From Rhizobacter sp. (lineage in GTDB: Bacteria; Pseudomonadota; Gammaproteobacteria; Burkholderiales; Burkholderiaceae_C), in the NCBI GenBank assembly GCA_017986065.1, contig JAGNWJ010000008.1, positions 1 through 51,541 on the forward strand: DNA of 51,541 nucleotides, given 5' to 3'. The position numbers and the translations under genes are program-made. Below the pieces are notes generated by a model. That model was not told the DNA's origin. It saw nothing but the letters and a program-made list of their open reading frames with translations, and ran no database searches. Numbering within the stretch: the stretch's first letter is position 1; each line of letters starts with the position of its first letter. Of this stretch, positions 23,857 through 28,694 are shown piece after piece.

Positions 23857-24202
23857 CGATTGCATGCGGCCTCGCAAGCGGCTCAAAGCCTCGGTTCGCG
23901 ATGACCGGGCGGTATAATCCTCGGCTGCGCCGACTGGGTCGGCAGTGACTGCGGAGCCTTCGGTCCCCGTCTGATCCCTGATCTCGGTTGTGGCGACAGG
24001 GACATTCGAACACCGCAAGGATCACCTTTCAAACCGTCTGAGGGCCTCCGCGCCCCCTTGGCAAGCTGACTCACATGTTGAAACAGCGCTCCATCAGGAG
24101 TTGCGAACTCAACCGCCGATCCGCAACGATCTTGTGAGTCGACACCTGCGGGACCACTTGTTGAAGTACCGGCGTTGAACCGCCGACCTATTGAGGAATT
24201 GC
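23857..24202 (+). promoter_or_regulatory. rpoD: dnaG-rpoD intergenic region: rpoD promoter and long 5' leader
   Basis: This gap holds no convincing gene. It contains a perfect TATAAT (23913-23918) with no good -35, giving a predicted leader of roughly 280 bases. Stems include GCCGAC/GTCGGC (23929-23943) and, near the gene, an 8-bp pairing GACTCACA/TGTGAGTC (24068-24075 with 24133-24140). The latter encloses GTTGA/TCAAC (24077-24081 with 24109-24113) and a GCGCTCC-atca-GGAGTtGC hairpin (24086-24104). GAGGA precedes ATG 24203. The pairings are seen in the sequence; any regulatory role is inference. Confidence 0.5.
23913..23918 (+). promoter_or_regulatory. Perfect -10 element, likely rpoD promoter
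   Basis: TATAAT matches consensus exactly and lies in the gap after dnaG. The sequence 16-18 bases upstream does not resemble TTGACA, so strength may rely on other contacts or an activator. Confidence 0.65.
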
Positions 24203-26473
<2,271 letters not shown>

Positions 26474-26527
26474 CCGCGCAGGTGACAGACAGTCCGGCGC
26501 ACCCTGAGCCTTCTCGCAGTTCAATCG

Positions 26528-26554
26528 GGCCCCACCCTTGTGTGGGGCCTTTTT
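26528..26554 (+). terminator. Terminator of rpoD
   Basis: An 8-bp stem GGCCCCAC / GTGGGGCC with a six-base loop is followed by TTTTT. It ends only 19 bases before the palindrome that precedes the cyclase gene. Confidence 0.92.
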
Positions 26555-26572
26555 CATGGCTGGTTGGCGATA

Positions 26573-26594
26573 GACTGTGACGCAATTCACAGTC
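26573..26594. promoter_or_regulatory. Consensus CRP-type operator upstream of the adenylate cyclase gene
   Basis: There is a perfect inverted repeat of eight-base arms GACTGTGA and TCACAGTC separated by six bases (cgcaat). The core TGTGA-N6-TCACA is exactly the cAMP receptor protein consensus. It ends eight bases before ATG 26603 and overlaps a -10-like TAGACT (26571-26576), a position that would suit repression. As RNA the same arms could also fold into a hairpin next to the ribosome-binding region. Confidence 0.7.
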
Positions 26595-26602
26595 ACCAAG
26601 GC

Positions 26603-27547
26603 ATGACTCGAAACCTCGAACGTTGCGTGCTGTTCGCCGATCTGCGCGGAAGTACCGGGCTCTACGAAACGCTCGGCAACGCTGTCGCCACGCAGTTGGT
26701 GACCCAAAGCATCGCGATGCTCGGGCGCGTGGTAGGAGCCTGCGGCGGTACGCTGGTCAAGACACTGGGCGACGGGCTGATGGCGACCTTCATCGACGCC
26801 ACTTCGGCCGTCAAGGCCTCGATCGACATGCACGAGGCGTTGTCGCGCGGCGGGCTGGACGAGGCGGTCGGGGCAGCCGGCCGGGCCCTGCGGCTGCAGG
26901 TTGGTCTGGCTTATGGTGAAGTCGTCGAGATGGCCGGCGACTACTTCGGCGATGCGGTCAACGTCGCGGCGCGACTGCTCGAGCACTCCGGAGACAACGA
27001 GACGCTGGCCACCTCGACGGTACTGGACGAATTGGCAGCGTTCGACCGGGTCCAGTTTCGCCGCCTCGATCACCTTCAATTGCGGGGCCGCGTCGAGCCG
27101 GTCGAAGTGCATGTGCTCGAGACGCACCACTTCACGGACATGGCGGCTACCGCGTTCGGCGACATCATCATGGCGCCAGAGCCCGAAGGCGTGCGGCTCA
27201 CCTGGCTCGACGTGAACCAGGTCTTCGCCACCGATAGCATGCCTGTCGTGCTGGGACGCAGCACGCAGGCGACGTACTGCATCGACGACAACCGCGTCTC
27301 CCGCTCCCACGCGCGCATCGATTGGCACGGTGGCGCGTTCCAGCTATCAGACCTCAGCTACAACGGCACCTACGTGCGATTCACCGGCGACACCGAGGTC
27401 GTCGCCCTGCGGCGCGGCACGTGCACCTTGCACGGCAGCGGTGTGATCGGTCTCGGCACGGCGCCCTCGGACCCAACGGCGCCCTGCGTTCGCTTCGAAG
27501 TGCTGCGTTTTTCCGACACCTTGCGGCAACCGCCAGCCGAAATCTGA
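26603..27547 (+). CDS. Class III adenylate cyclase fused to an FHA domain
   Basis: This is a 314-residue cytoplasmic protein predicted to make cAMP from ATP. The cyclase domain (about residues 5-165) shows the full expected set: metal-binding Asp13 (LFADLRGSTGLY) and Asp57 (LGDGLMATF), adenine-selecting Lys53 and Asp113, and transition-state Asn120 and Arg124 (GDYFGDAVNVAARLLE). The C-terminal FHA domain (about 215-305, VLGRSTQATYCIDDNRVSRS, then LSDLSYNGTYVRF) would bind a phosphothreonine peptide and could tie activity to a Ser/Thr kinase. ATG 26603 has only AAGG immediately upstream. A perfect CRP-type site lies directly before it, after the rpoD terminator. Guanylate cyclase activity is less likely given Lys/Asp at the base-selecting positions. 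Confidence 0.88.
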   Translation: MTRNLERCVLFADLRGSTGLYETLGNAVATQLVTQSIAMLGRVVGACGGTLVKTLGDGLMATFIDATSAVKASIDMHEALSRGGLDEAVGAAGRALRLQVGLAYGEVVEMAGDYFGDAVNVAARLLEHSGDNETLATSTVLDELAAFDRVQFRRLDHLQLRGRVEPVEVHVLETHHFTDMAATAFGDIIMAPEPEGVRLTWLDVNQVFATDSMPVVLGRSTQATYCIDDNRVSRSHARIDWHGGAFQLSDLSYNGTYVRFTGDTEVVALRRGTCTLHGSGVIGLGTAPSDPTAPCVRFEVLRFSDTLRQPPAEI

Positions 27548-27596: not shown

Positions 27597-28694
27597 ATGC
27601 CATTCGCTCCCGAGCCTGATCACGAACATGGCAAGCCCCCTTCGCCCGACACGGCAGTTCTCCTGTGCAACCTGGGCACTCCAGACGCACCCACTGCGCA
27701 GGCGCTGCGGCGCTACCTGAAGGAGTTCCTCAGCGACCCCCGAGTCGTCGAAATTCCAAGGTTGCTGTGGTGGTTCATCCTGAATGTCGTGATCCTGCGT
27801 GTGAGGCCCAAGCAGTCTGCTGCCAAATACGCGACCGTCTGGACCGATCAGGGCTCGCCCCTCAAAGTCTGGACCGAGAAGCAGGCCGCCATGTTGCAGG
27901 GCTACCTCGGCGAGCGAGGCCATCGCGTGCTGGTGCGCCCCGCCATGCGATACGGATCCCCGGCCATCGCCAGCGTGCTCGACGAACTTCGTTCAGCAGG
28001 GGCCACACGCGTGCTTGTGCTGCCGCTTTATCCACAGTATTCGGGGCCCACCACGGCAAGCGTATGCGACGCCGTCTTCGAGTGGGGCAAGCGGGCGCGC
28101 CGACTGCCCGAGTTCCGATTCGTCAACCAGTACCACGACGACCCGGCCTACATCGGGGCACTGGCCAAGCGCGTCTCCGATCACTGGAAGCATTCCGGCC
28201 GGGCGGAGAGGCTGGTGCTGAGCTTCCACGGTGTGCCGCGCCGCACGCTGATGCTGGGCGACCCCTACCACTGCCAGTGCCTGAAGACCGCCCGCCTGCT
28301 CGGCGAGCGGCTCGGCCTCGGCAAGGACGAGTTGGTGGTGACATTCCAGAGCCGCTTTGGCAAGGCCGAATGGCTGCAGCCCTATACCGAACCCACTTTG
28401 GTCGCGCTCGCTGGTCAAGGTATCAAGCGTGTCGACATCATGTGCCCGGGATTCACCGCCGACTGCCTCGAAACCCTGGAAGAAATCGCACAGGAAGCAC
28501 GCACCGCCTTCCTCAACGCCGGGGGCACCGAGTTCCACTACCTGCCCTGCCTGAACGACCAGCACGAATGGCTGGTCGCGCTCACGGGCATCGCGATCAA
28601 CCACCTGCAGGGCTGGAACTGCACCGTCGTCGCGGATGCGACCGCGCAAGAGATGCAACGCGAACGCGCCTTGGCGCTGGGCGCGGATCGCTGA
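27597..28694 (+). CDS. hemH: Ferrochelatase HemH
   Basis: HemH inserts Fe(2+) into protoporphyrin IX, the last step of haem synthesis, at the inner face of the membrane. The 365-residue length is typical. Visible signatures are VLLCNLGTPDAPTAQALRRY, LVLPLYPQYSGPTTASV, the metal-binding His in VLSFHGVPRRTLMLGDPY, SRFGKAEWLQPYT, and the Glu-containing CPGFTADCLETLEEI. ATG 27597 lacks a strong ribosome-binding site. GATAAT (27566-27571), with no clear -35, is a possible -10 element in the 49-base gap after the cyclase gene. Hsp15 follows after 52 bases. Confidence 0.96.
   Translation: MPFAPEPDHEHGKPPSPDTAVLLCNLGTPDAPTAQALRRYLKEFLSDPRVVEIPRLLWWFILNVVILRVRPKQSAAKYATVWTDQGSPLKVWTEKQAAMLQGYLGERGHRVLVRPAMRYGSPAIASVLDELRSAGATRVLVLPLYPQYSGPTTASVCDAVFEWGKRARRLPEFRFVNQYHDDPAYIGALAKRVSDHWKHSGRAERLVLSFHGVPRRTLMLGDPYHCQCLKTARLLGERLGLGKDELVVTFQSRFGKAEWLQPYTEPTLVALAGQGIKRVDIMCPGFTADCLETLEEIAQEARTAFLNAGGTEFHYLPCLNDQHEWLVALTGIAINHLQGWNCTVVADATAQEMQRERALALGADR

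Follow-up and report, generated by a model that had tools for sequence, protein, structure and literature searches.

In E. coli, control of the adenylate cyclase gene by CRP is a textbook example of a regulatory loop. The enzyme there, CyaA, is a class I cyclase, and the S. meliloti regulator Clr works with class III cyclases. The E. coli cyaA promoter is repressed by cAMP-CRP, as stated in the accessible part of PMC12237405. Clr is also a CRP-family regulator. According to the accessible part of PMC10127613, its ligand contacts are Arg95, Ser96, Thr140 and Thr141, and in CAP the residues through which cAMP acts are Thr127 and Ser128. The equivalence of the four Clr residues to CRP positions 82, 83, 127 and 128 comes partly from that text and is partly our own assignment. 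In B. cenocepacia, the CRP/FNR protein Bcam1349 together with c-di-GMP raises exopolysaccharide gene transcription (PMC3584217, accessible part). For GlxR and cyaB, autoregulation is not mentioned in the accessible part of PMC7026483.

The window analysed here is a stretch of 51,541 nucleotides from Rhizobacter sp. (contig JAGNWJ010000008.1), and it carries a CRP-type palindrome between rpoD and a cyclase gene (Table 1). The likeness to E. coli cyaA lies in an adenylate cyclase gene whose promoter is under CRP-type control, with repression shown in E. coli and expected here. The differences are that this cyclase is a class III enzyme with an FHA domain, that the candidate regulator has changed cAMP contacts, and that the system here is known from sequence alone. 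The locus would thus place an operator of E. coli design at an unrelated cyclase class in the Burkholderiales. Among the entries listed by our literature searches there was no paper on the cyclase or its regulator, and we do not claim that none is in print.

Table 1. Coordinates of the features discussed; positions are those of the window unless another contig or locus is named.
Feature	Location	Strand	Basis or remark
rpoD (sigma-70), upstream gene	24191..26473	+	six sigma-70 Pfam families; start as given by the ORF tool
Intrinsic terminator after rpoD	26527..26550	+	one hit in a terminator scan, against a mean of 0.2 in shuffles
-10-like TAGACT	26571..26576	+	overlaps left palindrome arm
Palindrome, arms 26573-26580 and 26587-26594	26573..26594		eight-base arms around a six-base spacer
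CRP-type core TGTGACGCAATTCACA	26576..26591		centre 26583.5, at about +1 of the inferred transcript
Class III adenylate cyclase with FHA domain, 314 aa	26603..27547	+	ORF, Pfam
Cyclase catalytic domain, residues 8-173	26624..27121	+	PF00211
FHA domain, residues 215-260	27245..27382	+	PF00498
hemH (ferrochelatase), next gene downstream	27597..28694	+	PF00762
Ser/Thr kinase with C-terminal cNMP-binding domain	own genome, contig C67, L074 121-1854		PF00069 and PF00027
134-aa membrane ORF	L148 1151-1555		orthologues L210-L219

The palindrome and the cyclase promoter

The preliminary description reported a perfect palindrome in front of a class III, FHA-linked cyclase gene, and this holds in each part. 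The eight-base arms, GACTGTGA on the left and TCACAGTC on the right, are 100% complementary around the six-base spacer CGCAAT and contain TGTGA-N6-TCACA. The ATG at 26603 follows the right arm after eight intervening bases (26595-26602), and the overlap with TAGACT agrees with the coordinates. The gene assignment is borne out by matches to PF00211 (E 2.8e-11; 43.8 bits against a cut-off of 21.9) and PF00498 (E 4.3e-11), and this protein is the sole PF00211 match in its own genome, a 3.0-Mb draft of 155 contigs that is 84% complete. In alignments, D13, K53, D57 and R124 match both Ma1120 and 3mr7, and D117 and N120 match 3mr7 only, not Ma1120. We take these six to be the metal, adenine-specifying and transition-state residues of a class III cyclase; their presence in the predicted enzyme is supported by these alignments.

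The exact site is rare. TGTGA-N6-TCACA has its sole 10/10 match in the draft genome here, with none for the reversed pattern as a control. When the 80 bp preceding the cyclase ATG were dinucleotide-shuffled 3000 times, 2 of the shuffles contained a 10/10 match. Matches with up to two mismatches number eight in the window, below the shuffle mean of 15.6; since these looser matches are rarer than in shuffles, the single palindromic site alone stands out.

A box of the form TANA(C/A)T, a pattern picked after inspection of the sequences, is found no more than 40 bp from the ATG in 33 of 41 cyclase orthologues, against a mean of 1.3 and a maximum of 6 in 200 shuffled sets. At standard spacing from the TAGACT box, the transcript would start near 26583, at the centre of the palindrome. 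The position of the box thus puts the site over the start point, which is the position of a repressor. A full sigma-70 scan found no promoter and no -35 element, and this counts against an operator. Read by eye, the T-run of the terminator falls at about the expected -35 position. The earlier claim that the site overlaps the cyclase promoter therefore stands as to position, with the promoter drawn from a -10-like box and no -35 found. Class II activation was rejected as an alternative arrangement, because a centre at -41.5 would, by geometry, place the start inside the coding region.

Among the 41 orthologues, 13 have the first base of TANA(C/A)T 12 to 14 bases ahead of the ATG, an arrangement that would give a leaderless message. 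In orthologues such as L046, L053 and L055, a TAAACT box stands 6 to 8 bases ahead of the ATG of the cyclase and suggests leaderless messages.

The explanation we favour is that the palindrome is a CRP-family operator from which the cyclase gene is repressed at its own promoter, with a protein encoded on contig C85 (L034) as the regulator. Taken whole, this is fairly probable. Of its parts, a CRP-family operator at the cyclase promoter is very likely, and the C85 protein is likely to be its regulator. The -10 box at 26571-26576 would direct a start on which the site is centred, a dimer of the C85 regulator would bind the palindrome, and the bound dimer would block RNA polymerase and so repress the cyclase gene; the start point, the binding and the repression by this regulator are what we infer from the arrangement. 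Its place over the likely start and its retention in close relatives make it probable that the palindrome is a genuine off-switch.

Conservation of the site among relatives

The upstream regions of the cyclase gene were read from orthologues in whole genomes and named contigs, with several genomes entered under two numbers. The cyclase was found in 12 of 15 genus genomes, the own genome included, and not in G001, G005 and G012 (genus genomes 74-88% complete). In one sequence, L006, the contig end falls inside the site. Throughout clade A, which comprises eight sequences with that of the window, TGTGA-N6-TCACR stands exactly at -27 from the ATG, and the spacer and flanks drift. Between -80 and -1 of these eight sequences, nine of the ten core columns are invariant, as against one of the six spacer columns and 21 of all 70 non-core columns (Fisher p 4.5e-4 for core versus non-core, a generous value in that the sequences are related). 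The fork leading to clade A has support of only 85/81 in the protein tree.

Across clade A, the three outermost bases on each arm differ between sequences, a pattern that favours a TGTGA half-site over an RNA stem. This bears on the possibility that the palindrome is an RNA hairpin near the start codon, serving as an attenuator or in translation control. A full 8-bp stem does form in the minimum-energy fold of the read-through transcript, but the z-score of that fold is only -1.74, with 12 of 200 shuffles equally good. The outer three base pairs are not kept: all eight pairs are present in two of the eight sequences, seven in one and five in five. A transcript beginning at the inferred +1 is without the left arm, and in its fold the stem does not form. 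We rejected the hairpin on account of its unconserved outer pairs and the arm missing from such a transcript, and regard it as very improbable.

Beyond clade A the record is different. The other clade of the genus, clade B (L011-L013), has no 9/10 site before the cyclase. Two genomes of this clade, G009 and G011, have the regulator and no site at the cyclase, and this is a point against the operator; in G002, neither the regulator nor a site at the cyclase was found. Among 33 orthologue upstream regions outside clade A, which may include duplicates across two collections, a 9/10 site occurs in two (L042 and L015), compared with an average of 0.007 in 300 shuffled sets, and the other 31 have none. 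The site of L042 lies just before the -10 box, and those of clade A overlap the end of the box. On a protein tree of 29 rows, the 10 site-bearing rows require three changes, so sites have been gained repeatedly or lost often. Conservation across relatives, in sum, favours the site within clade A, where core and distance are kept, and goes against it in clade B and in nearly all of the regions outside.

Such a distribution would suit a chance palindrome without function, as would a short motif in single copy. A chance origin does not sit well with a core conserved above its surroundings, nor with the presence of the site in two other lineages, and we consider it quite improbable.

The candidate regulator and its ligand

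The own genome yielded three Crp/Fnr proteins. Only the C85 protein has the CRP recognition helix (SREMVSR), in which R180, E181 and R185 of E. coli CRP are kept; the other two have their best scores with the FNR and FtrB models, below cut-off. The CRP homologue presupposed by the earlier proposal is thus at hand, with a helix of the type that reads TGTGA. Its best PDB match is Vfr of Pseudomonas aeruginosa (E 1.7e-31), with SREMV identical in the recognition helix. The two differ in the pocket, which has Arg-Ser and Thr-Thr in Vfr and His-Ser and Ala-Asp in the C85 protein. Within the genus, a match to the regulator with E below 1e-36 is present in 14 of 15 genomes. The next best CRP-model score among the genus matches listed is 74 bits, for a long frame of G011 that matches a cNMP domain, and among these matches there is no second strong CRP in the genus genomes, near-complete ones included. 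Autoregulation was considered and rejected, as no site of at least 8/10 occurs in 20 regions upstream of the regulator, which represent 19 genes with the own one entered twice and extend to at most 400 bp, or 49 bp in one truncated case. The lack of such a site at the regulator's own gene also weighs against the operator.

The pocket of the C85 protein is altered relative to E. coli CRP. Arg82 is replaced by His, Thr127 by Ala and Ser128 by Asp, and Glu72 and Ser83 are kept, so that one of the four cAMP contacts at 82, 83, 127 and 128 remains. Residues were read at the best 30 CRP-like loci, giving 29 proteins (L101 excepted); lower-scoring paralogues of other genera fall outside this set and may differ. 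Position 82 is His in 21 and Pro in one of the 22 proteins from the window's family, and Arg in none; it is Arg in all seven CRP-like proteins from other families of the order. Thr127 is absent from all 29, in both groups. With the pocket altered in 22 of 22 family proteins, this may be a CRP circuit that now answers a different ligand or none.

The preliminary description had proposed a complete loop, in which cAMP made by the cyclase activates the regulator, here the C85 protein, and the regulator shuts down the cyclase gene as at E. coli cyaA. Much of this fits: the operator and its position, the catalytic residues of the cyclase, the retained Glu72 and Ser83, a strong cNMP domain in the regulator (PF00027, E 3.2e-22), and the E. 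coli precedent described in the accessible part of PMC12237405. The part that does not stand is the sensing of cAMP. The replacement of Arg82, Thr127 and Ser128 makes cAMP less likely as the signal than in E. coli, and product feedback is accordingly only a possibility. Clr, by the accessible part of PMC10127613, has Arg, Ser, Thr and Thr at its contacts, and only the Ser is kept in the C85 protein. Against CRP proper (NCBIfam NF008732) the C85 protein scores 132.3 bits, under the curated cut-off of 266 bits; none of 60 genomes, the own included, passes this cut-off, which is itself narrow, with 1 of 14 control genomes passing. The cAMP feedback loop is unproven, and from these residues we judge it unlikely.

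The same pocket changes would agree with a regulator that answers another ligand, for example c-di-GMP, or none, in which case the circuit would be one of cross-talk and not of product feedback. A precedent for a non-cAMP ligand in a CRP/FNR-family regulator of the Burkholderiales is Bcam1349, which responds to c-di-GMP (PMC3584217, accessible part), but it is likened to the C85 protein by description and not by sequence similarity. We would put this possibility a little short of an even chance. It and the cAMP loop are both sub-cases of the operator explanation.

A kinase with a cNMP-binding domain and other sites

The case of the cyclase operator points to a Ser/Thr kinase, the fourth cNMP-domain protein of the own genome, as a possible cAMP reader. 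In the kinase orthologues aligned, of which L209 is incomplete, the pocket retains GEM and an Arg. A loss of Arg82, where the alignment has His, was entertained and dropped, since there is a conserved Arg two residues earlier. Of 120 family genomes sampled, 46 have a close orthologue of the kinase and 46 one of the cyclase, and 43 have both, by thresholds set by eye at the identity gap and with partial copies counted; shared descent explains much of this co-occurrence. Outside the family, the kinase is present in six of seven genomes with an FHA-cyclase, compared with 11 of 24 overall (p 0.02). No site of at least 9/10 was seen before the kinase gene in 23 regions, for which gene starts are approximate.

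Judging from its domains, the kinase may read cAMP instead of the regulator. A more elaborate arrangement, which we offer as a doubtful suggestion, would split the circuit: a cAMP-blind CRP-family repressor would act on the cyclase gene, the kinase would read cAMP, and phosphorylation may return through the FHA domain of the cyclase. If true, the split circuit would be a bacterial counterpart of the cAMP-kinase loop.

FHA-cyclase-like and Ser/Thr kinase genes are also found near each other in two other genomes. They adjoin in G016 (contig 14, 237667-239451), with 87 bases between them, and lie about 1.4 kb apart in G020 (contig 8, 58399-61433).

Across the 15 related genus genomes, TGTGA-N6-TCACR occurs 68 times versus 22 for the reversed control, palindromic matches being counted twice; this excess favours the operator model. 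At least 24 of 50 sites other than those at the cyclase fall within genes predicted by an ad hoc gene caller, which tells against the operator model; the L138 site is a 25th.

A second candidate target is a membrane ORF of 134 residues lying between amidase-like and dsbD-like genes (all three descriptions by eye), with no family above cut-off. It was found in 11 of the 15 genus genomes and not in G002, G005, G009 and G011, whose kinase sequences are clade-B-like. In clade-A-like genomes the site is conserved: 9 of the 11 orthologues have one of at least 9/10 roughly 100 bases ahead of the start codon, which favours the operator model, and over ten ORF loci a score of 9/10 is reached at 10 of 33721 positions. 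The own genome has only an 8/10 site in the same place, again a point against the operator model, and the copy in G008 is weak, with two internal stops and no site. By eye, the centre of this second site is near -71.5 of a plausible promoter, and -71.5 is a class I activator distance.

Another recurrent site, GTGAACTGGTTCAC, lies downstream of a yceI-like gene in each of four genomes (L142, L146, L172 and L176), and a variant of it is found beside other genes in L134.
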